From: Antedon mediterranea
Taxonomy: Eukaryota; Echinodermata; Crinoidea; Comatulida; Antedonidae
DNA: 64,000 bases
Assembly: GCF_964355755.1 (NCBI RefSeq)
Contig: NC_092672.1
Location: 13,760,501 to 13,824,500 of the forward strand
Direction: 5' to 3'
In this document: positions 15,664 through 47,745 of the stretch, in pieces
Numbering within the stretch: position 1 is the first letter of the stretch
Layout of the letters: each line of letters begins with the position of its first letter
Made by a program: the position numbers and the translations under genes
The notes under the pieces: generated by a model
Told to the model about the DNA's origin: nothing
What the model saw: the letters and a program-made list of their open reading frames with translations, nothing else
The model's database searches: none

Positions 15664-16801
15664 ATGAACAAATCAACTTTTTACACCGATTCGAATATTG
15701 TGAATGAGTCGACGACTGATGTCATAGGAAAAGTTGAGGAGACCGATTGGGATGACGTAATCAAATCGTACTCCTATACAACTACAGATGAAATTGTTAT
15801 CACAATATTTATGCCAATTGTTGTAATTATCGGTATTATTGGGAATCTAATGACAATCACTGTAATAGTGAAACATCCTCGCATGCGCACATCAGTCAAC
15901 GTGTATTTAGCCAACTTAGCGATTGCTGACGTTCTGTTTCTTTGCTTTGCTCCTGATCTGATATGGTCATCCTTTGCGCACAGTCCATTACACGATGTAT
16001 GTTGACATGGGCATCGGAGAGGGTATGCTATGGTTTTGCCACCTAAGCATTTACATCGTGGACACTGCGTTGCAAGTTGCAAATTTCACAATCTTCTGGA
16101 TGTCTGCTGAACGATATCTTGCAATTTGTCACCCTTTGAAATTTCGGAACAGTAAATTTGGAGAACGTTCGAGATCTTTACAAGTCTGCGTTATCATGTG
16201 GCTAATATCCTTAACATGGCAGGCCCGGAAATTTACTTGGATCGCTATAGTTTCATATGAATTCCCATGGCCTGATATGTACAACGGGGCTCCAAATTCA
16301 ACGATAGTATGTACTTACTGTGGTGCGAACACCGACAGTTGTGATTTTCAAAATGATCTTTTTGTGATCGATAGTTATTTATCGTTTACCCTAATAACAA
16401 TTGTAGTTGGTTTCTATACAATAATCCTGATTACACTCAAAAGATCAACCTTTGCAACAGCCAATTCAACGGGTAATAAAGTAAGGTCAAAATCAGAAAA
16501 GAAGGTCTTTATGACGATCTTCCTAACTGTAACTATCTACATATTTTGTATGGCACCATTCTCAATCATGAACATAGTGAGTATCTACCATGGCATTGAC
16601 CATAATGTTATACTTCAGATTGTTAACATATTTCGTGTTGCACTTTATACAAATTCGTACGTTAATCCTTTCATATATAATGTTGTAAATGAAATGTTTA
16701 AGAAAGTATTTGTCGATGTTTTCTACAGACGACGAAAGAGCAAGAAGACGAGTGGAGTTACAGTGGTTTCACAGACAAACCCCGCCTACGTCAATGGATG
16801 A
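15664..16801 (+). pseudogene. Class A GPCR copy 2, broken by a one-base frameshift
   Basis: This is the tandem duplicate of the receptor at 7220, almost identical in sequence. An extra base near 16001 (GATGTATGTTGA against GATGTATTTGA in copy 1) shifts the frame in the first extracellular loop and creates a stop at 16003-16005, after TM2. The second part stays open in another frame from 15974 to 16801, covering TM3 (SAERYLAICHPLKF) through TM7 and the tail (TNPAYVNG). It keeps the lysine codon that is a stop in copy 1. One codon is missing in the third extracellular loop (HNVILQ against HNVIFLQ). AATAAA follows at 16820. Confidence 0.8.
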
Positions 16802-17987: not shown

Positions 17988-18443
17988 TGTTGGGTGGTCC
18001 CTATCAAACGTTCTGGCAGGAAGGTTCAATCGAAGTTGATTTTGGTTAGATATATTGTGGAATACGCGTCTCTTGATCCTTTGATCGAAGGCGTTTGATA
18101 GTTAATTTAAGGTTTTTTTTAACATTAAAAAGGTTTTGTTTCAAAGAAAATGTGTTGCGGTGGTTCCGCTGTTTTATGTTGAATCTTTTAGTCATGTCAT
18201 GGTTAATGGGGCGGGGCGTGAGGCAATGCTGCCCTCTTTCTCCTGCTTTATGTTTTGTACATGAAGTCAGGTTTGATTCAGGGTGCGAAGTTACCTGGTA
18301 GTCGGGGTAAAGAATGCAAGTTCATTCAGTATGCGGATGATTTGAGATGTGCGGTGTCGTCTTACTTTACTTCTGTGTTAACGGCGTTTGAAGTTGCGTC
18401 CGATTCGCGTTCTCATACACAAAGAATCTTGAATAAATTCGCG
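17988..18443 (+). mobile_element. LINE reverse-transcriptase fragment, copy C
   Basis: Third copy of the same RT remnant, with RQCCPLSPAL and FIQYADDL. It lacks about 36 bases present in A and B (after GCGTTGCCAG), so the frame 18255-18818 runs open for 187 codons into the downstream block. Confidence 0.7.
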
Positions 18444-18872
18444 TTGCCAGAACGACTGAATGAGGACGTGTACAAAACCAGCTCCGCTAAATATTTTCAA
18501 CCAACACATTTTATAGTGATTCTACAATCTCACTGCTTCAGTAAGTCCATTTTACTTGCTTACTCACGTTCTACATCATTTTCCTGTTACTTATGGGGCC
18601 GAAACGAAATAAAGTTCCCTGAACCCACAGCAGCTGAGTCAACGATCAGCTCAAATCTCCCGCTACAGAAACATACCTTATACGGTCAGGAGCTGTGTGA
18701 GCTAAGCAAAGAGATCCGTGCCGGTATATCGAAGATTATGATCAATCATGAAAAAATATTCGATCGTATGCTTAATATTGAACCACTCAGCAATGCAAGT
18801 GGTTGCATTGCTAAATAGGATGTAGGCTATCTCAAAACTTCTAATAATGTAGTAGGTAGTGAAGTAAAGAAA

Positions 18873-26944: not shown

Positions 26945-27185
26945 TTACAATAAACATGTTTCGTAAATATTCTGTTCATTGTCAATTGATTCGTAGACTT
27001 TCTCATCTTGTTCTTTGTAACTCTGGTATATAGTATTCTTACTCACGTAATGAACATTCTGGTAAATTAAAGAATTGTCTGTAGTCCCTTTGGTGTTGGC
27101 TCCGTTTGGTTTACATCGTCGAATCAGGATTATTGTCACCAAAAACAAAATAAACACAAGTGACGGAATTGTTCCACCCAGTATT
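26945..27185 (-). CDS. Receptor exon 18: transmembrane segment and tyrosine-rich tail
   Basis: The last exon begins ILGGTIPSLVFILFLVTIIL, a single hydrophobic span followed by the stop-transfer RRCK. The tail of about 58 residues has six tyrosines: LIYQNV (Y1309), Y1314, Y1321, Y1324, VYESI (Y1332) and IYETC (Y1342). LIYQNV fits the ITIM consensus and also Y-x-N, a Grb2-SH2 type site. Signalling is inferred only. The chain ends ETCLL at the stop. Confidence 0.75.
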
Positions 27186-30100
27186 CTAAAATAAAACAAA
27201 ATAATATTTACTTACATAAACCAGCTTAATATAGTATGTTACTAAAACTTGGTGTAATGAAAATCCACAAATGAAATTTACTAGTGTTTCTAATATTAAT
27301 AATTTTCATTATTTTCAATTTTCCAATAAATTATTGTCATAACATTTTTTTTCTCATATTAAAACGAAACCGATCTAATAAAGTACTTTTTAGTAGCTTT
27401 ATCATTAGTAATTTACTCTGCATTAAACCTACTACTGTAACATTGATCAGGGTTTACTTTAAGTATGCTCCTCAGTGAAAAATAATGCTTCTCATATTTT
27501 TCAACATCTGCAGGATTCAAAATGGTGTAAGGCCCTCGCTAATACGGAATGCTTTACCGTTCTGGATTTTGGAGATGTCGCCTTTAAACTTAAGGTCAAG
27601 GAAACCCTCCTTGAAACGACCTATAAATTACTCAAGGAGCCGGGCTGCCGGGCCCTGGTCCCCAGTATTTCATGTTAATACTCACCCCCCCCCCCTCTCC
27701 CCACCTACTATTAAAAACGGATCTGCGCCGTTGATTCAGACTATAGGCCTAATCACACATCAGGGCTTATACAAATTGTAACAAATTTAATAATAAAAAT
27801 AATATTAAGTGACGTAGCCAAATTATAGCATTGTATCATGTTAATACTACTAGATCTAAAGGGTATAACTAATATAATTTTTTAAATTATATATGCATTG
27901 AATAGTTAAAATTACATTATTTCCCGTTCTGTGTGTAATTTTGTGTGAAACAACAGAATCCAGTAGAACCACCAACACCCGTCATCTAATTTGGTTTTAC
28001 GTTTGTGAAAGTTGTTTTTAGCCTAATTCATCACATTACTAAACTCAGTAGTTTCATTTGTTCAACCAAAGGCTAAATCAGAATGGTAGACTAAGTTTAT
28101 TCGTGGGACTTCTGATTATAGGTAGTACTAATCTAAATTTGCAACGAGAAGCGTTTGTGTATCTGTGTTATGTTATTATAGACAAACGAGGTTATTTTGT
28201 GTATACTGAAAAGCTTATAAAGATGATTTAAATAAATAAAGATGTAAAATGTAACATTACATTATATACTTCTTATACTTTGTGTACGTCGTATCTGATG
28301 CATTAGTTACATTAAAGAAGCGGATTGTAACAAAATCGGTCTTCGTGTTTCCAATTACATCAGTAGCCTTCACAAAAAATATGAACGTTTCTTCATAATC
28401 AATATCTCTCAGTTCAATTGTCACCATTCCATTCTAAAATACGACAAGTTCGAGACTCTCAGTTTTAACATTCTCCGTTGCTGTTTCAAATTAATTGTTT
28501 TCAAATCAAATTAAATACTATTTATTTGTCATGTGTAAAATATTATATAAATATAAAAACATAACATTATTACTACTACTACTACTACTACTCATCAAAT
28601 TTAATAGTTGTATTAAGACACATCATTATTTTTATTTCTATATATTATAATTAACAAAAACAAATCCACAAACATTATGACAACAAAACATTAGGTTCCC
28701 ATATTTGGTAGAATCCGGCCTAAAAGCATTTGTTGTAACCACTTTGGTATTTGACAAGTACCTTATTATTCGGCAATATCGTCCATTCCTGTTCCAGTTC
28801 ATCGCCTTTTTCCACATCTGTTACATTCTTTGTTTCCAGAAAGTAATAATAATTCATGGTTGTAACTAAATATTCGAATTTCACAATGCCCTCTTTATTT
28901 GGAATAGCTGATAAGGGCCGTCCTGGTGGCTGGGCATTTGAATCGTACGTCTCTTCAAAATCGTCGCCAATTGTTTCGATTGCAAGTAAGAAACCTTCAT
29001 CGACATGTAATTTGTTCTGAAATCGCTTTTCCCATGATAACATTACCTAACAATTGGAACGATAACATTAAATATCAGCAAAAACAAACAATAAAACGTA
29101 TTTTGGTATAGTAGAAATTGTCCCGTCGTACCGCCACGCTGAAGGTGTCGCTTTTCAATCTAATTTGAACAGTATCATGACACCCCCAGTCGTTAGAAAA
29201 TCTGTATATCCTCATCTTATCGTCTCAAAATTAATGTATTTATTATCAGTATATCACCAGACGGTTTATATATGTCCGAAAATCTACCAATAATAATATT
29301 GACAAATTTAATTAATGAATAACCCTAATACTTAATAAATGTACATTTACTTTGTTTTGTTTGTTTCCATTTATTTTAACTTCTGAATTGTTGGCATACT
29401 TCACGCCTCCAACTATGACATCGATAGAACTATCATCTACAAATGATATTTCACTCTGGTTATCAAAAATGAAACACCGTCGAGCATTACGAGTGTTACC
29501 AGCACTATCATTAACACTCAAGACTACACAGTATACACCTATGTTAATGAAAAGCAAACACAAACATAGTTATATAACGTTATACTGTACGTCTGTCCTC
29601 AATATAAAACTGTAGATGACCTTTGTTCTAATGTTATGTTTGTTTCGATTATCTTTAAAAACGCTATCATAAGAATATGTGTTTGTTTTATTTTGAATCT
29701 ATTAATAATGTGTATATAGTACAACAATAGATCCAGTGAAACTCAGTTACTCCTTCCACAGAGATAGTAGAAATGTCCATTGGTGTTCTTAACAGTTATT
29801 CAAAATAGAAAAAAACACTGCCGAAGGACCAAACATGATTTTGTGATCATTATGGGATGAAGTTTTTAAAGTAATTTCTAAATTTTATCTTAAAGTGCCC
29901 TTTAAGAATATTCCATAAAAACACTATAGTGGAAATGAATATATTTACAAAATAGACCAAATTCAGATCACTGTATTTCTTTTGGCATAGTTTTTTTTTC
30001 TTTCTAAATATAACGATTATTAAAACTATTTAATGCACGTTGTTGAAACACAGAAGTCAAACCAGTCAAATATCTCCATATTCCTGTTCTCGGTGATTCA

Positions 30101-33100
30101 AAATCAATGTGTTTAATGAAATGAATAATAATTGCATCATATAGGACCAATAATTAAAAACACACATGTATATACTTGACATCTGATTAGTTAATTTCGG
30201 ACAATATGGTAATGGTTCTATAACTCGGCAGCTTTTAGTATTTTATGCGAGCTAGTGGTCTGTTCGAAACAAACTTGTATTATGCACCGTCTATCTGTTC
30301 TAATCTGCGGCCAAAATCTGAGAGCGTTGCCTTTCTTTTTGAATAGTTTAGTCGCCGAGGGTTAGCTGCCGTCAAAAATAGAAAATTCTTAATCATTGAA
30401 CTGATAGACATTTCTTATTCTATACTACAGTAAATTACCTGGCGATGTGGGATTAAATATGGCCGTAAATGAATGTTCAGGTTGTGAAAACTTTAAAGTA
30501 ATACATTCGTCAGAAACATCAAGACTTCTATTGAAAGGAATCATTTTGCAAACTTTTGCATTATAGATTGAAACTCCGGATATTGCATCAAACCATGCCG
30601 ACCACGTGATTCTCAACTCACTCTGAAACAAAATAAAGAGAGAGATAGAATAATAATGGCTTTACATGACATTTATATTTTTATCAATTATATTTCAACA
30701 GACACGTAAACAAAATAAATTAATACCACAGCAATAATTAAAAAGTTCTCTAATTAATTAACATGTTCAAATAATAATAGCAATAACGATGAAGGTGTGT
30801 AGATACAGCTGACAATGACACACGCTAGGTCATTTAATTGAAAAACTAACCAATAATATATGCTACTGAAATAGGGTTCTGTCTGATATTAATAATTGCG
30901 GTGATAACAATAATAATTAATTATTAAATTTATGAATTCCTTACAGATTTAGTGTACCTATCACTGATTTCCAGCGCATTTCCAGCGCATGTTGAAGCTC
31001 GTGTAGTTGAAACTGAACAGTGAGTTGGTGGATTAAAGTCTACAACTACGTCCAGGTACCTCACTGAGCTTTTACCTTCGTAATATATTGAGCTGGGAGG
31101 GTCATGGATTATATTCAGGAATCCTCCATTGGTGGAGGAAGTTGTAATGACTAAGCTGAAAATAACATAGAATACAGAATACAGAATGTATTGATCCAAC
31201 AGGAAATTCGTTTCGTTAACAAGCTCTCAAACAATTAATTAAAAATATATAAAAAGTCATGAATACAAAATACAAGATCTTATAAAAATACGAATAAACC
31301 TCAAAATAGACAAAAATATAAAAATACTATATCGTAACATATATAATATATAGAAAAATAGATATATATTACCAGTATTATATACAGTTAAAACAAATTA
31401 CATATTCAATCTATCTTTTAATAGTTGCGTTATATAAATGGCAAGAATTTGGAACAAATAGATAGCAGTGTGTGTGTTTTAACAATGGGTTTATGTATGT
31501 TTCATCACTTTATTTATTGTTAATAATTTTATGTGTTAATTTTAAGTGGTCATTCAATCAAACATTTAATGTCTATACAAAATGTAGTATATAGATTTAC
31601 TAACAATAATGGATAAGATAGAACTATTATAACTAAAATAACTCATTCTATTAACATTTTTGGTGATGTCATCTGAGATTCATTGCCCGCTCCAATTATC
31701 TCATTCATTGATCTAATATCATTTGTGTTTTAAGTAAGTCACGTGTTTCATGTTTGAGATCAGCCTGAAAAAGGTTTGTATAAAATATAACATACCTGTC
31801 ACCATTTTGAAGGTTTCCTTCTAAATGTGCATATTCATCACATGTATGTAAGTTTTCATTTGGATAACTTCTGCTATAGTTTAAATTACAATCTATATTT
31901 CCAGCATCGAGAACATAGTTTTCTATAAGATAAGATACAATAATTAATATTTGGAATACAAACTCTATCATCATTTTCTCTCTTAACTTGAATGCACATT
32001 TACAACATAACTTATACTGATACTAATACCGTAATAAACTGTAAATTGGCATTAAGAAGGCTTTCGTACCTCTATTCACAGTCCAGTTTATAGCAGCTGC
32101 AATGACTCCTACTTTAAAATCACTGATATAGTAAGGATATGGATATTCGGATTCTGGAGGACCAGTAAATTTGGTGTGCCAAATTACAGATATCTTGGTG
32201 ACGTGTAAAGAACTATAATATGCAGGAATGTTTGGCAACATATTATGGCATGGGATGTCTGCAGTATAATCTTCATCGTTTTCATAAAGTACTACTGAGC
32301 ACTGAGTTACCGTAGATCCAACAGATACTATAAATAAATAAATAAATCAATTAATTGATTGATTGAAAATAATAATATAATTACCACATATATTGTTTGA
32401 AGGTTTGCATGGCGAAATCAAATGTTGATATAAAGTTTGCGGTACACCACGTATATTATTTCTGAAAAGAACTGTTGAGTTTGAGGACGATCAAAGCATA
32501 TTGATCGAAACGTCGAGAAACTTAACAGTTCTTTTCAGAACTAATACACGTGGTGTACCGCAGACTTTATATCAACATAGTTACCACACTTACGATAATA
32601 CTTTTACATTCGAGCAATCTATTCGATTAGAAAACTATGTGCATCATGAAAATCCACCTGATATTGGAGGAACTTACTACGCTAGACACATGACAGTTGA
32701 GCTTAAGGGCGTGCTAAACTTGAATTTTTTCCGTTTTGTTTAGTGTTTGTTTCGTAATTTCAATGTACTGTATCTCTAATTCTGGAAGCTTATTTGAATA
32801 AATTGAATAATTTGTTTTACATACTTGCCATGCAGTTGATGTCCATATTGAAATCTGGATGACAATTACAGCTATTGGTAGAAGAGTTACACGTGCCAGG
32901 GTAGCAAGAGTTGTGTTCATTTTTCCACATACATGTTTCTAGTGAGTAGTCTACACGTTAGTATAATACAATTCATTTATTCTATTTTTTGTATTTCTGA
33001 TGAGATCAATAGACATTTCGTAATATTTCTGATAATCTTATAACAGTCTTTTTTTGTGTGTTTCATTTATTTATTTTCCAATAAAAATGCATCAGGGATA

Positions 33101-36100
33101 AAAGTTTGCAAATTTGAATCTTGCTTCCTATGAAAATAGTCTGTTTTTCGGAAACTGTAAACTAATATACTATTTTGTTTGTTTTGTTAATAATTAAAAT
33201 TGTGAGAATAAAAAAAATGAATTACTTTACTTGGAAAGGTTTTGCCAGTTTAATTATAATCGTTATTCACTTACCAAAAATAGATCAATCAATTGTATTA
33301 CAAAATACTATTGAATTTGTCTGAAATATTTGTTAAATGTAATAGTTTATTGTGGCTTTTTATAAGTAAACTCATTATTTCTGTTCATTTTTTTCTACAA
33401 AAGTTAATAACCTTATTAAAACTGCAACCATCTTCATTAATGTCACAATACATCTTTAATAAAACAATAAGTACATAGATTATATTTTTTTATTTTAACA
33501 TCAGTATCACTGATTTTTAACCAAAAAAATTAAAAATATAAATAATGTAAAAATCAATGTTTCCATATTCATAGATTATATCTCATGTTCACTGCAACTT
33601 ACCAACAACTCTAATAAGAACCGTACATGTATCCGAGTTGCCAGATTGATCTACAACCGTGAACTCAACGACACTTCCATTTTCATTCATTGGAAAAATG
33701 TCGCCAGATATGAATGGATTTGAGTTTACTTCAACAACGTCGCCACTGTTGTCAGTGACAACCGGAGAAGTCCAAGATACAGTTGCAGTTGGTCTACCAG
33801 TGTCAGTAGAGATGTACAAAACACCACCTGATGTCTCAATTAGATTGCCAGAGGTAATACTGATGTTACAAGTTATGAATGGGTTTTCGTTATCTAAGTG
33901 TAAAAAATACAATTTAATTGTATTTATGTTTACAAGAAAAACAATCATACATCTGAAAATCTATCAAGAGTTCTTGCTGAAGAAGATTAATAAGCAATTA
34001 TTTCGGCTAGTTGCAATAATAATGATGTTAAATTGTTATTAATGTATATTTTGAATTACACAGAAAACTCTAAACCGCATAATATAAGTAAACTCATTAT
34101 TTCTGTTAATTTTTTTCTACAAAAGTTAATAACCTTATTAAAACTGCAACCATCTTCATTAATGTCACAATACATCTTTAATAAAACAATAAGTACATAG
34201 ATTATATTTTTTTATTTTAACATCAGTATCACTGATTTTTAACCAAAAAAATTAAAAATATAAATAATGTAAAAATCAATGTTTCCATATTCATAGATTA
34301 TATCTCATGTTCACTGCAACTTACCAACAACTCTAATAAGAACCGTACATGTATCCGAGTTGCCAGATTGATCTACAACCGTGAACTCAACGACACTTCC
34401 ATTTTCATTCATTGGAAAAATGTCGCCAGATATGAATGGATTTGAGTTTACTTCAACAACGTCGCCACTGTTGTCAGTGACAACCGGAGAAGTCCAAGAT
34501 ACAGTTGCAGTTGGTCTACCAGTGTCAGTAGAGATGTACAAAACACCACCTGATGTCTCAATTAGATTGCCAGAGGTAATACTGATGTTACAAGTTATGA
34601 ATGGGTTTTCGTTATCTAAGTGTAAAAATACAATTTAATTGTATTTATGTTTACAAGAAAAACAATCATACATCTGAAAATCTATCAAAAGTTCTTGCTG
34701 AAGAAGATTAATAAGCAATTATTTCGGCTAGTTGCAATAATAATGATGTTAAATTGTTATTAATGTATATTTTGAATTACACAGAAAACTCTAAACCGCA
34801 TAATATAAGTAAACTCATTATTTCTGTTCATTTTTTTCTACAAAAGTTAATAACCTTATTAAAACTGCAACCATCTTCATTAATGTCACAATACATCTTT
34901 AATAAAACAATAAGTACATAGATTATATTTTTCTACAAAAGTTAATAACCTTATTAAAACTGCAACCATCTTCATTAATGTCACAATACATCTTTAATAA
35001 AACAATAAGTACATAGATTATATTTTTTTATTTTAACATCAGTATCACTGATTTTTAACCAAAAAAATTAAAAATATAAATAATGTAAAAATCAATGTTT
35101 CCATATTCATAGATTATATCTCATGTTCACTGCAACTTACCAACAACTCTAATAAGAACCGTACACGTATCCGAGTTGCCAGATTGATCTACAACCGTGA
35201 ACTCAACGACACTTCCATTTTCATTCATTGGAAAAATGTCGCCAGATATGAATGGATTTGAGTTTACTTCAACAACGTCGCCACTGTTGTCAGTGACAAC
35301 CGGAGAAGTCCAAGATACAGTTGCAGTTGGTCTACCAGTGTCAGTAGACATGTACAAAACACCACCTGATGTCTCAATTAGATTGCCAGAGGTAATACTG
35401 ATGTTACAAGTTATGAATGGGTCTTCGTTTTCTAAGTGTAAAAATACAATTTAATTGTATTTATGTTTACAAGGAAAACAATCATACATCTGAAAATCTA
35501 TCAAAAGTTCTTGCTGAAGAAGATTAATAAGCAATTATTTCGGCTAGTTGCAATAATAATGATGTTAAATTGTTATTAATGTATATTTTGAATTACACAG
35601 AAAACTCTAAACCGCATAATATAAGTAAACTCATTATTTCTGTTAATTTTTTTCTACAAAAGTTAATAACCTTATTAAAACTGCAACCATCTTCATTAAT
35701 GTCACAATACATCTTTAATAAAACAATAAGTACATAGATTTGATTTTTTTATTTTAAGATCAGTATCACTGATTTTTAACCAAAAAAAATTAAAAATAGA
35801 AATAATGTATAAATCAATGTTTCCATATTCATAGATTATATCTCATGTTCACTGCAACTTACCAACAACTCTAATAAGAACCGTACATGTATCCGAGTTG
35901 CCAGATTGATCTACAGCCGTGAACTCAACGACACTTCCATTTTCATTCATTGGAAAAATGTCGCCAGATATGAATGGATTTGAGTTTACTTCAACAACGT
36001 CGCCACTGTTGTCAGTGACAACCGGAGAAGTCCAAGATACAGTTGCAGTTGGTCTACCAGTGTCAGTAGAGATGTACAAAACACCACCTGATGTCTCAAT

Positions 36101-39100: not shown

Positions 39101-42100
39101 ATTCTGGTACCACTGCGATATTTTCAATAAACGTTGATTCTGATATATATTCATTGAATATAACTAAATCACAGTTTATGGTTAAAATGTAGAGTGAGAT
39201 GCAACAAGTTTTCATAATTGTTAATCTTAAATAAAGGTAGCACAAGTCAGCCACAAAAGAGAAAAAGAACATCTAATGAAATGAATGAAAGATATAATTA
39301 ACTTACCACGAACTGCTAAAACTAGTCCGTTTGGAAATTGAAGTCCAGTTGTGACAAGGGCAGTTCTACTACTCAAGTTATTTAATTTAGCTCGTTCTAT
39401 CTTCTTTGTTCCCCAATCAGTCCAATATAAATATCTAAAATAAATGAGAGAAATAAAGCCTCATAATTTTACAAGTAGCTTGGTATATTGTACGATTTGA
39501 AATAAGGATCATTGAAATCGATTTGAAATGATTAATTTTAGCCCACCATTGTGTATTCAATTCAATTCAATTCAACTTTTATTTCAGGCAATTGTCCATA
39601 ATGGTATAATACATTACAAAAAAAAGATGAAGGAGAGAAGACAAAAACTTTTATATATTGGTATATAATGCCTCTCTCCATTTGTAGTACATGTTTGAAT
39701 CCATCAACAAATAATTATATATACAAATTAACATTCTGTTTTCGCTTTTCATTATTCTTGTAAGAAATCAGTAAGTCGAAATCTTCAAATATTCATAAAA
39801 TGATGAAATATTGTTTTCCATAAACAAATTCCTCGCACTAACAAATCTGAGTTGTCCCAACAACCTCCGGAAAGCATCATTATAACAAACTTTAAGTCGG
39901 TTGATATCTTTATACAAATAATGAATGTTTATGAGTGTAATGGTACAAATAATGGCATGAGGTGAATGATGAAAGGTTATTATATAACCTTTCATCATTC
40001 ACCTCATGCCATTATTAAGTATTAAAGGTTTGAGCATCATAGAAAAGATACCGGTACTGTCATTTAGCCTACACATTTTATTCTGGGATGTTATTACCTC
40101 CACCGAAATGACGACCAATCGTGTGTGTGTGTGTGTGTGTTTCTTTCTATATTTTAGCAGGATTTCCATAGACTTATAATAGCTTCATATCTGTATGGAA
40201 CAGGTTATTCAAATTTTGCGCTCTCTAGTTGATCTAGAAATGAATTTTCTACCTTAATTTTCTATATGTACGAAATTGTTCTTGTCTGATTTTTATTCCC
40301 AGGAAGATTAGCTTACAATTGTTTGTTATTCTTTTTCGATAAAATCAATGTTAAAAACATACCCATAAGCTGGGTCTACCTCAATCGCACGTGGCTTTAC
40401 TAACGTTGTGTCAAAAAGAATTGTTCTGTTTGTTCCATCCAGGTTTATTACTTCGATTCTGTTTTCATTTTTACTTGTCCAATAAAGTTTATTTCCAATG
40501 GCATCAATAGCTAAACCATCCACAACTACACGCACAGGGCAGAAAAAATCAATTATGAGATGCACCATTAAGCAAAAAATGAAAATAAAATTATTGTTCG
40601 TAGTCTCCGAGATATTAAATTAAGATATATTTCATCTTGAAAGAATTTCATTTAGCTTCGATTTTGTATAGATGACAAATTTCGTTTTTGTAAAAGCACA
40701 AGTTAACGGAGTACTTACTCGAACGTTTCGATCTCTATCAGAGATCCTTCTCAACTGACTGCGGAGTGTTAATGCAGCTTGGTCATTCTTGACGTCATCT
40801 GTTGATGACGTTGTACGCCTCCGGAGGCGTACAACGTCATCAACAGATGACGTCAAGAATGACCAAGCTGCATTAACACTCCGCAGTCAGTTGAGAAGGA
40901 TCTCTGATAGAGATCGAAACGTTCGAGTAAGTACTCCGTTAACTTGTGCTTTTACAAAAACGAAATTTGTCATCTATACAAAATCGAAGCTAAATGAAAT
41001 TCTTTCAAGATTTAAGAGAAAAATATGGTCAAGAAACCATCAACATCGTACGCAAACAGGAAAATATCGCGAAGAAAATTTCACGGCAGAGAAATCACCG
41101 GGTATTCTCCCTTCATTGTAAGCGGTTGGACATTACCCCTCCGAGCCTGAAATTATATCGACCGATCAAATCGTCTAAAGCAGAGGAAATAATAAAACAT
41201 GCAGAAAGACAGCTTTTACGTGAGAGAATAAGAATCACCACCAACAAAATCACACAGTTAGAAGGCAAAAAGAAAGATTTAAATGAGGAAATCGTATCGC
41301 TAATTCCCAACGGAGGGGACATCACCAATGTATGTAATCACGTAAACAAAGTGTGTGAAGCGGAATTCTTAAAATGCCGATCACGACAACAAAACAAACT
41401 GTTGTGGTGGAAAAACAAAGCAGAAAACGCAGCTAGAGATTTACATCAAGAACAGGATTTATCCGGTAAGATCTTAAGAGAAAAATGGGTGGTAAATCTG
41501 TCTAGTAAGTTGGTTAGTGAGGACGAAATATCAGCATTACAAAGGGGATTGAACTATGCGGCGAGCCCACGATCCATGCCCATTGACGATCTCATAGTAG
41601 CGGCTGAAAAAGCGGCTGATCTCGTCCCCCTGGAAGAACAAGACACCGTTCGCAGTAAAATTGTAGCTATTGTAAAATCTACCACTCTACCACCTTCAAA
41701 TTTAACCCCCAAAGAACGAAAGGCCATAAACAACTTGAAGAAAGATAAATCTATTCTTATTCTCCCAGCGGATAAAGGTAGATCTACTGTCATCCTAAAT
41801 ACTAATGATTACAAAGATAAAGTGGGAACCATGGTGAGCGACACTAATGTTTACGAACTGCTAAAACGTAATCCAACACAAAACTATAAACGAAAAGTGG
41901 TCAACATCATAGGCAGGTTGTTCAAAGAAAAGAAAATCAACTACAGAGAGAAAGAATGGCTGTTTCCCACGGCTGAAATTGTACCTAGGTTGTATTGTCT
42001 TCCGAAGATACATAAACCAAATTGGCCATTAAGACCTATAGTAGATAACATCAACACCGTTTTTTACACCGTTGCACAATTCCTCACCAAAATCCTGGGT

Positions 42101-45100
42101 CCGCTTGTCGGAAACACAGAACATCATGTAACTTACTCAGGAGAGTTGGCGAGTGAACTAAAAGAAATAATAGTCAAACCAAGTGAAACATTTGTCTCGT
42201 TTGACGTAGTATCTCTGTTTACAAAAACACCAGTAGAAGAGGCCCTCAAAGTTGTCGAAAATCGCCTAACAACAGATCCGACACTTCTGGATAGAACTAA
42301 ACTACATGTGACAGACATAATGGAGCTCCTCGGTTTAATTGTGAACAAAACCTATTTCTCGTTCAATGGTAACATTTATAGGCAAATACAAGGCATTGCT
42401 ATGGGAAGCCCAATAAGTCCTATATTGGCGAACTTGTATCTAGAGTGGCTCGAACATCAAGCCATAAACACGGCACCCACTAACATCAAGCCTGTGTATT
42501 GGAAACGATACGTTGATGATGTATTAGCTATCATCCCCATAGGTACAGTACATACATTTAACACACATCTTAATAACATCGATATAACTGACAATATCAA
42601 GTTCACCACAGAATCGATGACAAACAACACAATACCTTTCCTGGACATGCTCATCACACTCAATGACAATGGAACAGTTACCACCTCAGTCTATCGGAAG
42701 CCCACTCACACAGACCAATATTTACATTTCAACTCACATCATCCACTCGAACACAAACTGGGGCTTATAAACACGCTTGTGGACAGAGCTGAGAAGGTAG
42801 TGGGAGATATGGATTTGAGGAAAGTTGAGATGGATAACATCAAGAAAGCGTTACACAACTGCCAGTATCCAGAGTGGTCCTTCCAGAGAGTTATGGAAAA
42901 CCGAAAAAGAAAAAAGAACAAAGGACACGAACCACAGAAGGAAAAGATCAAGATGCGAGGTAGCATAGGAATCCCCTATGTAAAAGGAATGGCAGAAAGA
43001 ATACGACGCACTCTCTCCTATCACAATGTCGGAACCTATTTCCTACCCCAAAATAAAATCAAGAATAGCCTCGTCCACCCAAAAGATAAAATCGAGAAGA
43101 TGGATACATGTGGAGTAATCTACGAAGTCACCTGCCGCAACTGTCCACAAGTTTACATTGGGGAAACAGGGAGGGCATTACAAACACGAATTAATGATCA
43201 CAAAAAAGATGTTACAACAAACACGGGGGGAGTAATGACTAGGGCCTCCAGAACATCCACATCTTCGATCATACACAAATCTGCCATTACAGAACATGTC
43301 ATAAAACACAATCATGTACCGAACTGGGAGGCTACCATCTTAACCAAAGAGCCTAAACGCAAAGACAGACAGATTAGAGAATCATTACATATAAGGAGAA
43401 ATAAAGAGAAGACCATGAACCGGGACACTGGAGCCCACGAACTCTCGCATTTGTACAATGATTTGATAGACACATCACCTGGCCGAGCCCCGCACAACCT
43501 CCAACCTACAACCGGAGGCGTACAACGTCATCAACAGATGACGTCAAGAATGACCAAGCTGCATTAACACTCCGCAGTCAGTTGAGAAGGATCTCTGATA
43601 GAGATCGAAACGTTCGAGTAAGTACTCCGTTAACTTGTGCTTTTACAAAAACGAAATTTGTCATCTATAGATATATTTCATATTGTGATAAGCCAATATA
43701 TAGTGGAACCATGCTTTTAGGACACCCCTATTCAGGAATAGGAACACTTTTGATTGTGCTAAATTGTTGATTAAATACCTATAAAGGGGACAACATTTTT
43801 CCCATCACAAAAAAATCAAATAATTATACTCATATATATCATTATTACTACAATCACAGATATTTAATAATTATTATAATATTAATTATGATAGATTTCA
43901 TTTGTGAAACGTTGGCTGCTCAATTTTCAATTCTCAATTTCCTGAATCCAGATCAATTGTTCATTTTGGTAAACTTTAAGGAAACACTTGAGTGCTACTA
44001 TAATTCGATTCATATGGATTTGTTTCTCAAAATGTATGGTTGAATTTTTTTTTAAATTCTACTTCAAGACACACTTACAGTATTTAAAAATTCTAACAAA
44101 AATAAAATATAGGCCTAAGTTTGTTTGTAGCCAGAGAATATATAATAGAGATTCTAATAAAATTGAATTGAGATAATTGTTACCTCCAGATTGAAAAGAC
44201 ACTAAAACGTCATGTTCGTCGGTGACAAGTGAATACCATTCAATTGTAGATTCTGATACATCAGACCAGTATAGTGTAGCGGTGTTAGCATTATAATCAA
44301 GAGCGACTGGTCTCTGTAGTGGAACATTCTGAATTGCGTCCGTAAATTCTAAAGATGTACCACTGGAATCAATAGGCGAAGAGTAAATTCCTGGAGGATT
44401 GAGATTGGTTACAAACATAACATCACCTAAAAATAAATTAGTTAAATATTATCTGCAAAGCAGGATGTGCTTATAAAGTTATTAATTTAAAATAATGTAT
44501 ATCTTTAACTCAAATAATGTATATTTATATAAGTGTCTCAATGTGCAATTTTGTTGATTTGTAAACAGCATAAAAAAAAGAAATAATATTTAATTATTTA
44601 TATTGTCTAAGGATATAAATATAGAAAATATAAATATGATAATAAATGTCTATTAATGGATACATTTTAAATGTTTGTACTATACACATTCTTATTTATT
44701 ATTATTAACAAACTTTATTTCAGATTTGTCCATATTACAGTACATATCAAATATAAAGTGTAAGCAAAACATTCAAACTATATATATATAAATATCATAT
44801 AAAATAATGGGCAGTACGAAAAAACAAACTGAAACACTAGGTGCTCAAATGCTCAAGTTTTGATCCAAACATACTAGATTGTACAACAACCTTTACAAGA
44901 GAATTGTTACTATTTGTAACTCTATTCATAAATCCATAACAAGTTTTTATATAATATTCATAGAAAGATGGAACATTACTTGTTACAAACATTTGACTAG
45001 CACTACGGTGTCTAGGAAAGCCCATACATTTTCTGAAGGCATTATTTAACACACCTACAACTCTTTTATACTAACCTGAGTGAATTTAGACCATAGACTA

Positions 45101-47745
45101 CTGAAATACATAGTGCTACAATAAGATTTAAACAGATTACACTTATAACCTCATTGGAGCATTTGTTAAATTTGCGGCATAACAAATTAGCATGTGTGCA
45201 ATTGATTTCTACTGACGTCTGATATCATGAGCATCATTTAGATCATAGGATAAAATATGACCAACAAAATTAAGCTCATTGCCTCAGAGAGTAATATTAT
45301 GTCTTCTGTCTCTAATTTTTTTTGGTGAAAAGACCATACATAACGACTTTTTGGGATTGAATAATATATCATGCTTAATACCATATGATTCACAGATACT
45401 GACTAACATTTTGGAGTCCAGTAAGTGAATGTGCTAAAAGTTTATATCATCGACATAACTTGAGTTGTTAATTCGCACTCCATAAATAGTACAACCAACA
45501 ATACATTTGTTAAGCTCAGTATTAAGATCATCAATATACATATTATATAACAAGGGGGACATTATGCCCCCTTGCCTCACACCATTGGAAACTGCAAACC
45601 ATTTAGATAGGTTATTACCACAATTAAAACTGAATGTTTGTGACCAATACCACGATGCAAGCAACTTAATTTTTTTTATATGATATAATGTTATGTAGAT
45701 TTAAAGTAATTATCTATCAAAACCTTATAAAATAAAAATAACTCAAATCAATGAAATAGTAAATTAATATTAACAATTATAATACATGTAAGGATCGTGA
45801 GGTAATTTCCCGATTGATCGTAATCAAAACGGTACTGGGTATGGTCTACTAACGTTCCTGCTCCCAACTCGTCATCCATTCATAGAAGCTTTGATGAAGA
45901 AAGCCTACCTGGTGGTAACCATAGAACGGTCCCGAGATAACGACTATACTTCGGCTTTAGTCGATAGAAGATTGAAAAAATTGTTAGAGATAGCGTATAC
46001 AATGCTTGATTATGTGTCGTGAGGTAATTTCCCGATTGATCGTAATCAAAACGGTACTGGGTTTGGTCTACTAGCGTTCCTGCTCCCAACCAGTACATCC
46101 ATTCATAGAAGCCTTAATGAAGTAAGCCTACCTGGTGGTGGCCATAGAACGGTCCCAAGATAACGACTATACTTCGGCTTTAGTCGATAGAAGATTGAAT
46201 AAATTGTTAGAGATAGAGTATACGATGTTATGATTATGTGTAGATATGTGATTTGTTCTTTTTATTCAAGTGATGTTATGTATTTAATAAATTTGTTATA
46301 TCAATTAATTAAATTATCGTAGATTGCATATTATGCGATAAATATTATTTAATACATTTTTGATATATTATTATTATTATTATATTAATAAAAAGATATT
46401 TGTTAGTATAAATTTAAAAATATAGATATAAGGAAGAAAAGCAAAGAGATTATTGTAAAGTTAATATATTTAAAAAATTTAGGCGATCTTGTCAAAGGTC
46501 AAGCGTCTTCAGCCTGCCACGTTTCGATATTCAATATTGAACTTGACCTGACGTGGTTCCACAATATCTTTATATGAAAATGGTAGAGTGGATAGAAACA
46601 TAAATTAATTTAAATTTAAGATGTTTACCTTAAACTGGTTTTGAACTGAATCGGTTGATGTCTTATCGTTGTATGTATGATTTGGTTTGGTCAAAGAACT
46701 TATAACACAAGAATCTCCTGTTCTTCAATTTGCATTCAAAACACAGTATCGGAAGTACAGGGTTAAAAGGTCAAACTGGGCGACGCCAGTTCACAGCATG
46801 GTGCAGCGCCCCCTCCAAACTAGGAAGTCAATTACTCTACCCCCCCCCCCCTAGAGTATTAGCAGATCCCCTCTATGATTTTGACTTTCTAATTTGATGC
46901 GGGCGCCCTACTCCTCAGTCAATTACTCTATCCCCCCTAGAGTATTAGCAGATCCCCTCTATGATTTTGACTTTCTAATTTGATGCGGGCGCCCTACTCC
47001 ATGGCTCACAATGGCGCCACCCATTAGCTCTATTCTATCCCACAATGCCTTTCGAAATTGTTACGCGCTTCGGACGAACAGGAGATTCTTGTGTTATAAG
47101 TTCTTTGACATTTAAATATGTTCGATAAAAGTGCGTATGCGTATAGAATGAAATGCTCGCGTTACGATGTACGCGTGTAATGCTGTTTATATCGTATAAA
47201 AGATAAAGGATGAAAATATAGAAGGTATGATGGTAGAAAAATAAAAAAGCAGCTTAGGATGTAGAAATAGGAACAGTTTGTTAGTGCAAAAGTGTAGATT
47301 TTGAATGCGAAACACTCGGACTTGTACAGTTCGTGCTTACATTTATTAATGCTTATCCTTTTACACATCTATAATTATAATTGTTTAAACACTTAAAAAT
47401 TATTATCAGTAATGTTAATAGATGAATAAATTGTTATAATAAGTCTACACTAATTGTATTAAACGTTATATACGTGATATTGTTGAATGAAATTGAATAT
47501 AGGTGGTGCATGCCACAAAAAGAAAAAAAAGTGAGTAAAATTAATCGACAAATTGAATTTCTTATTTTAGTTTTAAAACGCCTATGTATGTGCAAATACA
47601 TAGCTTGTTCTATGGGGCTATTGATATTAAATGCGAACTCACCGATAACTACGTCTTGTGCAACCACTACCGGTACTAGAAAATACCAACACAATGTACA
47701 AAATAACATTGTCATTGTTCCTATAAAAAGTAATAAAATAAACAA
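26945..47745 (-). CDS. Mosaic type I membrane receptor: YWTD propeller, CUB, 4x HYR, FN3-like, TM, Tyr-rich tail (18 exons)
   Basis: I assembled exons by GT-AG borders and phase, in transcript order: 47643-47745, 44184-44426, 40363-40525, 39307-39434, 37432-37674, 36917-37267, 35863-36153, 35141-35431, 34325-34615, 33603-33893, 32070-32327, 31796-31922, 30945-31155, 30439-30622, 29351-29538, 28762-29046, 28279-28433, 26945-27185. They sum to 4044 nt, all junction phases agree and no stop interrupts, giving 1347 residues. Layout: signal peptide (about 1-30), YWTD propeller (35-294), CUB (294-411), four HYR (411-799), cysteine-containing region (799-997), FN3-like modules (998-1268), TM (about 1274-1289), cytoplasmic tail to 1347. 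From family knowledge these are extracellular binding and adhesion modules; ligand and function are unknown. Small exons could be missing, especially in the 3.2-kb first intron. I do not recognise a named orthologue. Confidence 0.8.
27475..27680 (+). mobile_element. Possible Penelope-like C-terminal scrap in receptor intron
   Basis: One frame reads ECFTVLDFGDVAFKLKVKET, weakly resembling the FKVLD...LKIKEAL stretch near the end of GIY-YIG retroelement proteins. Short and degenerate; could be coincidence. Confidence 0.25.
28279..29046 (-). CDS. Receptor exons 16-17: membrane-proximal FN3-like module
   Basis: Exon 28762-29046 (285 nt, phase 0-0) begins VMLSWEKRFQNKLHVDEGFL and contains AIPNKEGIVKFEYLV. 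Exon 28279-28433 (155 nt, phase 0 to 2) continues NGMVTIELRDIDYEETFIFF and VKATDVIGNTKTDFVTIRF. I recall similar, mostly unnamed modules from invertebrate extracellular proteins, but this is from memory. The exon ends just before the membrane segment. Confidence 0.7.
29120..29275 (+). repeat. Copy of the tRNA-containing repeat with tRNA body deleted
   Basis: The flanks match the full copy at 59584-59815 (GTACCGCCACGCTGAAG, AACAGTATCATGACACCCCCAG, CAGTATATCACCAGACGG), but most of the tRNA part is missing. It lies in the receptor intron between exons 15 and 16. Confidence 0.6.
29351..30622 (-). CDS. Receptor exons 14-15: FN3-like module
   Basis: Exon 30439-30622 (184 nt, phase 0 to 1) starts SELRITWSAWFDAISGVSIY, resembling the W-x-x-F-x-D-x-x-SG start of extracellular FN3-like modules. 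Exon 29351-29538 (188 nt, phase 1 to 0) continues VYCVVLSVNDSAGNTRNARR and CFIFDNQSEI, the D-x-AGN closing pattern of the same fold. The phase-1 junction gives CCA G|GT GTA without a stop. Confidence 0.7.
30945..32327 (-). CDS. Receptor exons 11-13: cysteine-containing ectodomain of unknown fold
   Basis: Exons 32070-32327 (258 nt), 31796-31922 (127 nt) and 30945-31155 (211 nt) join with phases 1-1, 1-2 and 2-0. They encode about 198 residues with scattered cysteines (TQCSVVLYEN, ADIPCHNM, IDCNLNYS, HTCDEYAH, THCSVSTTRASTCAGN) and several N-glycosylation sites. I recognise no named domain. The third exon ends RYTKS at a good donor (AAATCT|GTAAGG). The region lies between the HYR array and the FN3-like modules. 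Confidence 0.7.
32423..32577. repeat. Inverted repeat with Penelope-type terminal hairpin in its loop
   Basis: Two 60-bp arms (32423-32482 and 32518-32577) match with about four differences. The 35-nt spacer holds GATCAAAGCATATTGATC, a hairpin followed at once by GAAACG. The layout mirrors the head-to-head terminal repeats of the intact Penelope-like element. Confidence 0.65.
32821..32920 (-). CDS. Possible alternative first exon with signal peptide
   Basis: Inside the intron between HYR domain 4 and exon 11 an ATG at 32920 opens MNTTLATLARVTLLPIAVIV, a plausible signal peptide. The strong donor CAA|GTATGT is phase 0 and does not fit exon 11. A weaker donor four bases on (TAT|GTAAAA) is phase 1 and would splice in frame to exon 11, making a short receptor without propeller, CUB and HYR. 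It could also be chance or the start of an unrelated small gene. Confidence 0.25.
33603..33893 (-). CDS. Receptor exon 10: HYR domain 4
   Basis: This 291-nt phase 1-1 exon is the last HYR domain before the membrane-proximal region. Its phase-1 donor joins exon 11 in frame. Protein sequence matches HYR domain 3. Confidence 0.85.
34325..34615 (-). CDS. Receptor exon 9: HYR domain 3
   Basis: This 291-nt phase 1-1 exon appears identical in protein to HYR domain 4 (33603-33893). It has the same acceptor (ACACTTAG|AT) and donor (TTG|GTAAGT) as the other copies. The flanking intron is also nearly identical. Confidence 0.85.
35141..35431 (-). CDS. Receptor exon 8: HYR domain 2
   Basis: This 291-nt phase 1-1 exon is nearly identical to the neighbouring HYR exons. 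Distinguishing residues are NEDP near the start and YMSTDTG where the others have YISTDTG. The intron downstream in transcript order carries an extra 94-bp internal duplication, so its repeat unit is 816 bp instead of 722. Confidence 0.85.
35863..36153 (-). CDS. Receptor exon 7: HYR domain 1
   Basis: This 291-nt phase 1-1 exon encodes a complete HYR (hyalin repeat) domain of 97 residues. It shows the two conserved cysteines (FITC..., DTCTVLI), VSWTSPVVTDNSGDV, the G-x-x-FP turn and VEFTAVDQSGNSDTC. It differs from the other copies by an Ala in place of Val (FTAVDQ). It shares splice sites and flanking intron sequence with the three other HYR exons. Confidence 0.85.
36470..36606 (-). repeat. 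Degraded copy of the tRNA-containing repeat
   Basis: On the minus strand this reads GGTTAGGACATCTGCATATC and later GAATCTCGGTTGGGGCG, the same tRNA body, anticodon loop (ATATCAA) and tail (CTCATTCTCACAGATTTCC) as at 59659. The 5' acceptor strand no longer pairs. It lies in the intron between the CUB exon and the HYR array. Confidence 0.7.
36917..37267 (-). CDS. Receptor exon 6: CUB domain
   Basis: One 351-nt exon, phase 1-1, encodes a whole CUB-type domain of about 117 residues. It contains the paired cysteines of FMPCDQCSLRLQFIDF, the acidic-aromatic YDFVYINSNG stretch, and the closing strand PGFQAIIMATG. The donor is GGTG|GTAAGT. The phase symmetry marks it as a shuffling-type module, like the HYR exons that follow. 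Confidence 0.8.
37432..37674 (-). CDS. Receptor exon 5: last two YWTD blades
   Basis: This 243-nt exon, phase 1-1, encodes DGKMYWCDAGTDVIEEANLD and then NYLYWSDWTDGIYRVDRR. Exons 2-5 together give about 259 residues, the expected size of a complete six-bladed YWTD propeller. The 24-bp minisatellite begins about 50 bp upstream of this exon's acceptor. Confidence 0.85.
37725..38092. repeat. 24-bp minisatellite, about 15 units, in receptor intron
   Basis: The unit TATTGTATTCCAAGATGGCT plus GTTA repeats with few variants. As 24 is divisible by 3, several frames stay open on both strands. These are artefacts of the repeat. It lies just upstream of exon 5's acceptor in transcript direction. Confidence 0.95.
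39307..39434 (-). CDS. Receptor exon 4: YWTD blade
   Basis: This 128-nt exon (start phase 2, end phase 1) encodes YLYWTDWGTKKIERAKLNN followed by LQFPNGLVLAVRG. YWTD and the NGL motif are canonical for LDL-receptor class B blades. The donor is CGTG|GTAAGT. Confidence 0.85.
39556..39998 (-). mobile_element. 5'-truncated LINE end in receptor intron
   Basis: The minus strand encodes VCYNDAFRRLLGQLRFVSAR and NLFMENNISSFYEYL, the C-terminal tail of a CR1/L2-like RT protein. It ends with a (TTGAA)n-type tail near 39545-39560. A perfect inverted repeat sits at its 5' truncation point. Confidence 0.65.
39948..40016. repeat. Perfect 33-bp inverted repeat with 3-nt spacer
   Basis: Arms 39948-39980 and 39984-40016 are exact reverse complements around TAT. 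It coincides with the 5' end of the LINE fragment. Confidence 0.9.
40363..40525 (-). CDS. Receptor exon 3: YWTD blade
   Basis: This 163-nt exon encodes VDGLAIDAIGNKLYWTSKNE..., a textbook LDLR class B blade, and ends DPAYG. It starts in phase 1 and ends in phase 2 at ATGG|GTATGT. Joining to the next exon rebuilds DPAYGYLYWTDWG across the intron, which is strong evidence for the splice. A Penelope-like element lies in the intron just upstream (antisense). Confidence 0.85.
40634..41011. repeat. Perfect 378-bp palindrome at the 5' end of the Penelope-like element
   Basis: Arms of 189 bp meet without a spacer at 40822/40823 (CGCCTCC|GGAGGCG). Confidence 0.95.
40636..43668 (+). mobile_element. 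Complete Penelope-like retroelement, antisense in receptor intron 2
   Basis: The element carries one long RT/GIY-YIG ORF. The 3' terminal repeat 43514-43669 is identical over 156 bp to 40823-40978. At the 5' end that repeat and the start of the ORF are mirrored in a perfect 189-bp head-to-head inverted repeat (40634-40822 against 40823-41011). A 13-bp target duplication, AGATATATTTCAT, flanks it at 40623-40635 and 43669-43681. Identical repeats, an intact ORF and a clear target duplication point to recent insertion. Confidence 0.9.
40994..43567 (+). CDS. Penelope-like RT with C-terminal GIY-YIG endonuclease, 857 aa
   Basis: The RT has motif A FVSFDVVSLF (Asp404), motif B GIAMGSPISPILANL, the YVDD box at residues 506-509 and the following TIPFLDMLITL. 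The GIY-YIG endonuclease domain has GVIYEV (707-712), VYIGETGR (720-727), an ITEHVIKHNH helix and the glutamate in RESLHIRRN. The order RT then GIY-YIG is that of EN-plus Penelope-like elements, which copy RNA into DNA at a nicked target. No stop or frameshift is visible. The Met at 40994 lies inside the terminal repeat, and the C-terminus (VQRHQQMTSRMTKLH) runs into the 3' repeat. Confidence 0.92.
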   Translation: MKFFQDLREKYGQETINIVRKQENIAKKISRQRNHRVFSLHCKRLDITPPSLKLYRPIKSSKAEEIIKHAERQLLRERIRITTNKITQLEGKKKDLNEEIVSLIPNGGDITNVCNHVNKVCEAEFLKCRSRQQNKLLWWKNKAENAARDLHQEQDLSGKILREKWVVNLSSKLVSEDEISALQRGLNYAASPRSMPIDDLIVAAEKAADLVPLEEQDTVRSKIVAIVKSTTLPPSNLTPKERKAINNLKKDKSILILPADKGRSTVILNTNDYKDKVGTMVSDTNVYELLKRNPTQNYKRKVVNIIGRLFKEKKINYREKEWLFPTAEIVPRLYCLPKIHKPNWPLRPIVDNINTVFYTVAQFLTKILGPLVGNTEHHVTYSGELASELKEIIVKPSETFVSFDVVSLFTKTPVEEALKVVENRLTTDPTLLDRTKLHVTDIMELLGLIVNKTYFSFNGNIYRQIQGIAMGSPISPILANLYLEWLEHQAINTAPTNIKPVYWKRYVDDVLAIIPIGTVHTFNTHLNNIDITDNIKFTTESMTNNTIPFLDMLITLNDNGTVTTSVYRKPTHTDQYLHFNSHHPLEHKLGLINTLVDRAEKVVGDMDLRKVEMDNIKKALHNCQYPEWSFQRVMENRKRKKNKGHEPQKEKIKMRGSIGIPYVKGMAERIRRTLSYHNVGTYFLPQNKIKNSLVHPKDKIEKMDTCGVIYEVTCRNCPQVYIGETGRALQTRINDHKKDVTTNTGGVMTRASRTSTSSIIHKSAITEHVIKHNHVPNWEATILTKEPKRKDRQIRESLHIRRNKEKTMNRDTGAHELSHLYNDLIDTSPGRAPHNLQPTTGGVQRHQQMTSRMTKLH
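43514..43669 (+). repeat. 3' terminal repeat of the Penelope-like element
   Basis: Identical by eye to 40823-40978. It contains GATCTCTGATAGAGATC followed by GAAACG, a hammerhead-like arrangement discussed in the findings. Confidence 0.9.
44184..44426 (-). CDS. Receptor exon 2: first part of YWTD propeller
   Basis: This is an 81-codon exon, phase 1-1. It begins GDVMFVTNLNPPGIY and contains the blade signature LYWSDVSESTIEWYSL, typical of LDL-receptor class B repeats. The acceptor lies in TTTTTAG|GTGATG and the donor in GGAG|GTAACA. It supplies about two of six blades. Confidence 0.8.
44696..45670 (-). mobile_element. LINE fragment in receptor intron 1
   Basis: The minus strand reads NGVRQGGIMSPLLYNMYIDD and INNSSYVDD (RT motifs B and C), then NNAFRKCMGFPRHRSASQMF near the 3' end. 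Same general family as 39556-39998. Truncated and frameshifted. Confidence 0.65.
45797..46235. repeat. About 220-bp sequence duplicated in tandem
   Basis: Two copies starting near 45797 and 46018 share TCGTGAGGTAATTTCCCGAT and CGACTATACTTCGGCTTTAG. They lie in receptor intron 1, with no known domain. Confidence 0.85.
46490..46565 (-). repeat. Penelope-type terminal signature
   Basis: The minus strand reads TTCAATATTGAATATCGAAACGTGG, a hairpin immediately followed by GAAACG, with CCACGT upstream pairing to ACGTGG. Likely a relic of an element end. Confidence 0.4.
46691..47108. mobile_element. 418-bp element with perfect 33-bp TIRs in receptor intron 1
   Basis: Termini 46691-46723 and 47076-47108 are exact reverse complements starting TCAAAGAACTTATAACACAA. 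The interior has an approximately 90-bp tandem duplication (46826 and 46917 onward) with C-rich tracts. There is no coding sequence: a MITE-like element. I could not identify a clear target duplication. Confidence 0.7.
47643..47745 (-). CDS. Receptor exon 1: signal peptide
   Basis: The ATG at 47745 opens a strongly hydrophobic leader ending in a small-residue cleavage context (VVVAQD). The reading frame stops at a good donor (ATCG|GTGAGT) in phase 1, matching the phase-1 acceptor of the first propeller exon. A second in-frame Met at 47715 (MTMLF...) would also give a usable signal peptide. No upstream promoter element is evident. Confidence 0.65.

Follow-up and report, generated by a model that had tools for sequence, protein, structure and literature searches.

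The stretch of DNA analysed here (the window: 64,000 nucleotides of the crinoid Antedon mediterranea, C3:13760501-13824500) holds a region that we consider likely to be a single gene of 19 exons encoding a type I recognition receptor with one membrane pass, kinase-less and RTK-related, in which the N-terminal half would have been shuffled in and the tail is predicted to dock SH2 proteins. The membrane-proximal half of this window gene would belong to a family comprising a tyrosine-kinase locus and kinase-less relatives, and the modules in front of it have close counterparts elsewhere in the 354-Mb, 18-contig genome, against which the gene was searched.

Gene model and domain evidence

Three-frame translation and a listing of splice sites place the gene on the minus strand of the window (47715..26945), with 19 exons encoding 1,385 amino acids and a stop (Table 1). 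GT-AG is present at 18 of 18 introns, all 18 junctions are phase-compatible, and 12 of the 18 introns are in phase 1. The initial annotation had joined eighteen exons in phase to 1347 codons; the gene, its outer limits and the in-phase joins stand, while the count becomes 19 exons and 1,385 residues. The predicted order is a signal peptide, a single LRP-type YWTD propeller, a CUB domain, four HYR domains, a small Cys-rich exon, a juxtamembrane region of ~465 residues, a transmembrane segment (TM) and a tail of 58 residues. Propeller, CUB, four HYR, TM and tyrosine tail were thus recovered as claimed, the segment then called FN3-like was not, and the Cys-rich exon (32950-32825) had probably been missed.

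Table 1. Exons of the window gene and sequence features within its span (window coordinates).
Feature	Positions	Strand	Evidence or remark
Exon 1: start and signal peptide (MTMLFCTLCWYFLVPVVVAQ...)	47643..47715	-	Translation, splice sites
Exon 2: propeller (Y1)	44184..44426	-	PDB match; 97% identical in paralog, splice sites intact there
Exon 3: propeller (Y2), YWTD repeat	40363..40525	-	Pfam, splice sites
Exon 4: propeller (Y3), YWTD repeat	39307..39434	-	Pfam, splice sites
Exon 5: propeller (Y4), many genomic copies	37432..37674	-	Splice sites, genome matches
Exon 6: CUB	36917..37267	-	Pfam, 24.1 bits; 5' half absent from tandem paralog
Exon 7: HYR 1	35863..36153	-	Pfam, repeat spacing
Exon 8: HYR 2	35141..35431	-	Pfam, repeat spacing
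Exon 9: HYR 3	34325..34615	-	Pfam, repeat spacing
Exon 10: HYR 4, same coding sequence as HYR 3	33603..33893	-	Pfam, repeat spacing
Exon 11: small Cys-rich module, EGF-like in appearance (CYPGTC...CNC)	32825..32950	-	Like exon precedes X1 in four C6 cluster copies
Exon 12 (X1): juxtamembrane region, no known family	32070..32327	-	Family alignment
Exon 13 (X2)	31796..31922	-	Family alignment
Exon 14 (X3)	30945..31155	-	Family alignment
Exon 15 (X4)	30439..30622	-	Family alignment, genome matches
Exon 16 (X5): conserved GVYC..L.V.D.A.N.R.ARRC	29351..29538	-	Family alignment, genome matches
Exon 17 (X6)	28762..29046	-	Family alignment
Exon 18 (X7): weak donor site	28261..28433	-	GT kept in paralog
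Exon 19: TM; cytoplasmic tail of 58 residues, six of them tyrosine (LIYQNV, KVYESI); stop	26945..27185	-	Equal length in paralog
Four-unit tandem duplication with HYR exons and introns, spacing 722/816/722	33387..36161		
24-nt minisatellite, intron before exon 5, approximate limits	37700..38130		
Penelope-like retroelement, intron between exons 2 and 3, 857-aa ORF	40634..43669	+	Absent from paralog

Pfam returned 18 families at E<=1 for the 1,385-residue model. HYR was found on four stretches (117.8 bits), Ldl_recept_b on three (95.3 bits) and CUB at 24.1 bits against a cut-off of 21.4; further rows on the HYR stretch (Big_3_2, VWA_3_C, CDC48_2, PQQ_2, GCV_H and others), some above cut-off, we take to be repeat artefacts. 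In the PDB the propeller matches chains of LRP6, LRP4, LRP2 and LDLR (170 bits for LRP6, 3sob), and the CUB weakly resembles neuropilin-2 and MASP (best E 0.0022). The Cys-rich exon 11 gave no Pfam family at E<=1. GPS and 7TM are absent from the Pfam list of the gene, as is any kinase family, and its last exon stops 58 residues past the membrane. Model and domain matches together bear out the anatomy first proposed, that of a single-pass receptor with ligand-binding-type modules. The four HYR units are pairwise 97.9-99.7% identical over 512-720 bp, introns included, and their amplification therefore appears recent; this near-identity could in part be an assembly artefact.

The region from the Cys-rich exon to the membrane (X1-X7, ~465 residues) is common to the window gene and five further loci, at 42-60% identity. 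In the window member no Pfam family reaches its cut-off and no PDB match is clear, and a profile of the region found no PDB chain at E<=1. The FN3 label is unproven, since FN3 is not among the Pfam families of the window gene or the six family members and the profile is without a PDB match; the best family across the six is Big_13 (three of six, E 4.6e-05), which is Ig-like, a hint of beta-sandwiches in this region.

Elsewhere in the window there are two much alike rhodopsin-type GPCR ORFs, one with an in-frame stop (7211-8359, +) and one with a frame change or short intron (15655-16801, +); the scanned pieces score 74.8 and 86 bits. One ORF fragment (WERLNEDVYKTSSAKYFQPTHF..., also in a variant form) recurs at three places (706-1086, 11139-11594 and 18222-18818, +). 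The usual anticodon of tRNA-Asp is GTC; a tRNA-Asp at 59659-59730 (+) has ATC and may be a pseudogene. Marker searches of the genome found let-7 and gave no match for COX1, bantam, mir-2 or GH6. These negatives say little, as a missing match in this assembly is no proof of absence and bantam and GH6 had no match in the control genomes either, and the markers do not establish the invertebrate-deuterostome association that the initial annotation invoked for HYR and CUB.

The membrane-proximal half and its tails

Five copies of the X region lie at C6:21.53-21.66 Mb. In four of them the Cys-rich exon, X1 and X2 could be read, and no propeller match was found in this cluster. At one of them, C6:21657, X7 is followed on the same strand by a piece common to the 21637 copy (ESGI..VHWQI), a TM segment and kinase exons. 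The kinase pieces score 233.7 bits for PF07714 when joined by eye, with exon edges and the TM-kinase joint approximate, and EGFR, FGFR and Tie2 chains are the best in the PDB among the best 60 of 799 matches. The catalytic loop reads IIHRNLGARN, with DFG kept; HRN replaces the HRD of active kinases, so that kinase activity at this locus is doubtful. At C6:21657 (C6:21647501-21660500, minus) kinase exons sit beside an ectodomain homologous to that of the window gene, a feature of RTK membership, and the C-terminal half of the window gene is, as far as predicted exons tell, shared with this RTK-like locus. The C6:21637 copy has a similar TM and juxtamembrane piece, with no kinase exon seen by eye within 6 kb beyond the TM piece, and the C6:21534, 21541 and 21593 copies have tyrosine tails on a tail exon without a kinase. 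Most of the kinase-less relatives read have tyrosine-motif tails.

In all six tails counted there are tyrosines, from 5 to 19 of them, the window gene having six in 58 residues. Each of these tails was shuffled 2,000 times by composition, C5:21576 being left out. The strongest signal is that of C6:21593, whose tail (368 residues, 19 tyrosines) has 17 YxxPhi motifs against 3.58 in shuffles (0/2000 reach 17) and four ITAM-spaced pairs against 0.02 (0/2000); the tail DNA repeats with periods of 99 and 117 nt, so these motifs are copies of one unit and not independent. Its TM and tail form a single ORF (C6:21591263-21592468, minus). The C6:21534 tail has seven YxxPhi motifs against 2.74 (15/2000) and no strict ITAM. 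YxxPhi is not above shuffles in the window gene (2 against 1.08; 569/2000 reach 2), its tandem paralog (2 against 1.13; 630/2000), C6:21541 (1 against 0.85) or C6:5187 (1 against 1.70), and ITAM spacing (YxxL/I-x6-12-YxxL/I) is absent from the same four tails. At C5:21576 a TM-like ORF ends, unless another exon comes after it, in 36 tail residues that include no tyrosine, exon borders being approximate; it lies downstream of X5 and X6 (positions 4258-4476 of C5:21571001-21578000, minus), and X7 was not found in that stretch.

The description of the tail as phosphotyrosine-type therefore holds in part: it is rich in tyrosine, and it has no more YxxPhi motifs than its composition gives. YQNV presumably fits a Grb2 site, and YESI or YESV what we take to be an Shp2/ITIM-like site. 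The motif YES[IV] is common to the tails of the window gene, the paralog and C6:5187, the last tail being otherwise different; together with the tyrosine content this supports a putative docking role for the window tail.

Two other readings of the protein bear on this tail. The gene could encode an extracellular-matrix anchor or adhesion protein that signals little, in which CUB and HYR are adhesive and the tail incidental, as the great abundance of HYR in the genome (1,415 candidates, with 150/150 of the best 150 scored over cut-off), a tail motif count not above shuffles and the C5 relative without a tail tyrosine would allow; six tyrosines in 58 residues, the presence of YES[IV] in the otherwise differing C6:5187 tail as well and the kinase relative make this unlikely. 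An endocytic or scavenger receptor of the LDLR/LRP type, in which the propeller would bind or release cargo and the YxxPhi motifs would act as sorting signals and not as phosphotyrosine docks, has the LRP-type propeller in its favour, and LIYQNV and KVYESI also fit, we assume, YxxPhi sorting signals. We judge it improbable, given that LDLa (class A) repeats are absent from the 18 Pfam families at E<=1 and EGF from the Pfam list of the gene, that the tail has no NPxY (there is no NP in its 58 residues), and that relatives with the same juxtamembrane region have kinase exons in one case and long tyrosine arrays in others.

The tandem copy and the probably shuffled N-terminal half

A tandem paralog at C3:13908516-13925689 is colinear with the window gene and has an intact frame of 880 residues with the internal GT/AG sites kept; in exon 1 the first ATG is lost and the second kept. 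CUB and HYR apart, its exons are in the same order and 91-100% identical to those of the window gene, with differences at 46 of 2,637 aligned exon sites and 269 of 10,244 intron sites. That the order, splice sites and open frame recur in the paralog makes a chance origin of the gene model unlikely. In the paralog the CUB exon is missing its 5' half (window 37050-37319), and a LINE ORF of 988 residues takes the place of the entire HYR block (window 33354-36768); because the exons flanking the gap join in phase 1, the frame of the paralog is open. The LINE ORF is uninterrupted (C3:13916769-13919732, minus), with reverse transcriptase (RT) at 121.4 bits and endonuclease at 24.9 bits. Within the window gene, the Penelope-like element scores 29.6 bits for RT, at cut-off, and 21.3 bits for GIY-YIG, just below cut-off, and its terminal repeats, both direct and inverted, are partial; at the corresponding site of the paralog the element is absent, so the insertion is probably younger than the tandem duplication.

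Another relative, C6:5187 (C6:5180001-5190000), has propeller exons and, ~105 bp further on, part of X3, X4-X7 and the TM, with phases compatible from Y2 to the TM and Y1-Y2 outside that resolved span; it is without the CUB-HYR cassette. The initial annotation had named a split of the region into two genes as an outcome that would speak against it. In such a split, exons 1-10 would encode a secreted propeller-CUB-HYR protein and exons 11-19 a Cys-rich-X-TM receptor, much as the C6 cluster has the X-TM half without a propeller match; as both halves stand in the same order in the paralog, their phases compatible, and propeller and X exons lie ~105 bp apart in C6:5187, we regard it, on DNA sequence, as very unlikely, and the window region as probably one gene. 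A recent pseudogene or non-expressed chimera from segmental duplication, to which several intronic transposons and a dN/dS of about 0.6 could point, is about as improbable, with 1,385 codons free of stops, splice sites intact, the duplicate intact too, and exon divergence below intron divergence. The dN/dS value comes from 774 codons, leaving out the signal, Y4, CUB and HYR exons (24 amino-acid and 35 nucleotide differences; dN 0.0133, dS 0.0223), and at ~0.6 on 35 differences between tandem copies it is weak evidence of constraint.

For the single gene that we favour, the N-terminal half would have been added piecewise by phase-1 exon shuffling, a direction that we infer. The propeller would derive from an LRP-type cassette of which the genome has dozens. 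A genome search with the C6:5187 Y4 exon gave at least 46 matches at E<=1e-6, at least 37 of them with at least 53% identity over at least 76 of 82 residues; these counts, which include the window copy and the paralog, are lower bounds, the best 150 of 160 candidates having been scored. The 37 are spread over C1, C2, C3, C5, C6, C7, C8, C9 and C11, one with an internal stop, and sequence was retrieved at 17 of these 37 loci besides the window, the downstream context being read at those described here. HYR lies downstream at four C1 propeller loci, with 13 matches at C1:6532 and 3, 2 and 1 at the others, and at C1:6727 a further 11 HYR-like ORFs were seen by eye further on. The HYR arrays of the propeller genes at C1:6724001-6742000 and C1:6532001-6542000 are long and seem to consist of repeating sets, each with some three dissimilar HYR types. 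At C5:21592 an X4 exon lies ~4.5 kb downstream of the propeller match and may belong with it. In a tree of 18 Y4 exons, in which three of 15 inner branches are well supported, the four C1 propeller-HYR genes group together (99/99), apart from the window gene and its copy (99/97).

Some candidate domains near other propellers were rejected: a VWD after the C1:5906 propeller scored 20.5 bits, below its cut-off of 22.9, and a D8C-like reading of a piece near the same propeller had no Pfam match. An adhesion-GPCR reading of C9 propeller genes, made by eye, was likewise set aside, the GAIN-like piece having no Pfam match and the EGF piece being below cut-off.

The CUB-HYR cassette would be related to a nearby GPS-bearing locus. 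At C3:13117446-13129931 (+), ~0.68 Mb from the window gene and on the opposite strand, two CUB exons are 94 and 95% identical to the window CUB, and of 18 HYR matches the first is 92% and the rest 33-64% identical to window HYR; exon-plus-intron stretches round CUB and HYR are ~86% identical between the two loci. Beyond the HYR matches come an EGF-like piece, at 17.7 bits below its cut-off of 21.5, and a GPS motif that Pfam scores at 54 bits. This locus thus resembles the window gene in CUB and one HYR and differs in having two CUB, 18 HYR matches and GPS, with no propeller match. It is probably an adhesion GPCR, and only probably so, because Pfam returned no 7TM family for the single ORF submitted, though a 7TM was read by eye. 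It lies within C3:13108001-13138000 (plus). Since C6:5187 is without the cassette and the paralog keeps a CUB remnant, the cassette would have entered the ancestor of the window gene before the tandem duplication and then been lost from the copy. The window gene is apparently one product of a genome-wide reuse of the same parts, and no lone oddity.

Relation to known receptors

The window gene shares the LRP-type YWTD propeller with LRP5/6, LRP4, LRP2 and LDLR, LRP6 being the best single-domain PDB match, and differs from them in having a single propeller followed by CUB and HYR, no LDLa and no NPxY. With RTKs of the EGFR/FGFR/Tie type the link runs through C6:21657, where the Cys-rich-X1-X7 region is accompanied by kinase exons that best match EGFR, FGFR and Tie2; the window gene itself has no kinase, and the C6:21657 catalytic loop has HRN. 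RTKs of the ROS1/Sevenless type are built of propellers, FN3, TM and kinase. They resemble the window gene in placing a propeller in a single-pass receptor, and ROS chains match its propeller weakly (E 2.8e-06 at best), whereas the window gene is without an FN3 match or kinase and has CUB and HYR instead.

By description, the choanoflagellate RTKC8 is alike in its four HYR domains, single pass and tail tyrosines; it also has a kinase, CAP-Gly and Cys-rich domains, and no propeller or CUB is named for it in the portion of the source available (PMC10263333). Tails with ITIM, hemITAM or YxxI/L/V motifs are described, in the available part of the source, for Botryllus fester co-receptors and Hydractinia allorecognition candidates, so the tyrosine-motif tails reported here are not new in kind (PMC12065747). 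The fester co-receptors, likewise compared by description, differ in having Ig and sushi ectodomains and in belonging to a polymorphic allorecognition locus (PMC12065747). The initial remark that no named receptor was known with this domain order agrees with a literature search, mostly at the level of listings, in which none was met; nor did the listings yield a receptor combining HYR and YWTD. The sections available of PMC7853314 name both, among domain abbreviations and for an unrelated YWTD coral skeleton protein, and the main text of PMC12716839, in the part available, has nothing on HYR or YWTD. We file the window gene as a kinase-less, RTK-related modular receptor.

As a working model, the propeller and CUB would bind a ligand protein or the surface of an adjacent cell, and the HYR repeats would form a length-variable stalk or adhesive spacer. 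Clustering may then let other kinases, of the Src type or an RTK relative, phosphorylate the tail tyrosines, which would dock SH2 proteins. Each step beyond "surface receptor" is an extrapolation from the families concerned, and expression, ligand binding, adhesion and phosphorylation of the window gene are predictions from its sequence. Against this model stands the paralog, which does without CUB and HYR.

A broader scenario, which we hold tentatively and think rather unlikely as a whole, is that an RTK lineage gave rise to kinase-less receptors keeping the RTK juxtamembrane ectodomain, with tyrosine-motif tails (up to the 17-motif, ITAM-spaced array of C6:21593) and varied N-terminal cassettes (propeller, CUB and copy-variable HYR). 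The window gene might then be one product of a fast-shuffling recognition system specific to its lineage, whether immune, self/non-self or gamete, relying on borrowed Src/Syk-type kinases and with HYR number differing between individuals.

The window gene would represent a receptor caught mid-assembly, its likely sources still present in the genome as propeller cassettes, a GPS-bearing CUB-HYR locus and an RTK-like family. Nature provides a deletion of CUB and HYR in the tandem copy, by which these domains could be tested directly, and the kinase-less relatives with tyrosine arrays suggest a possible route from receptor kinase to ITAM-like receptor in invertebrate recognition.
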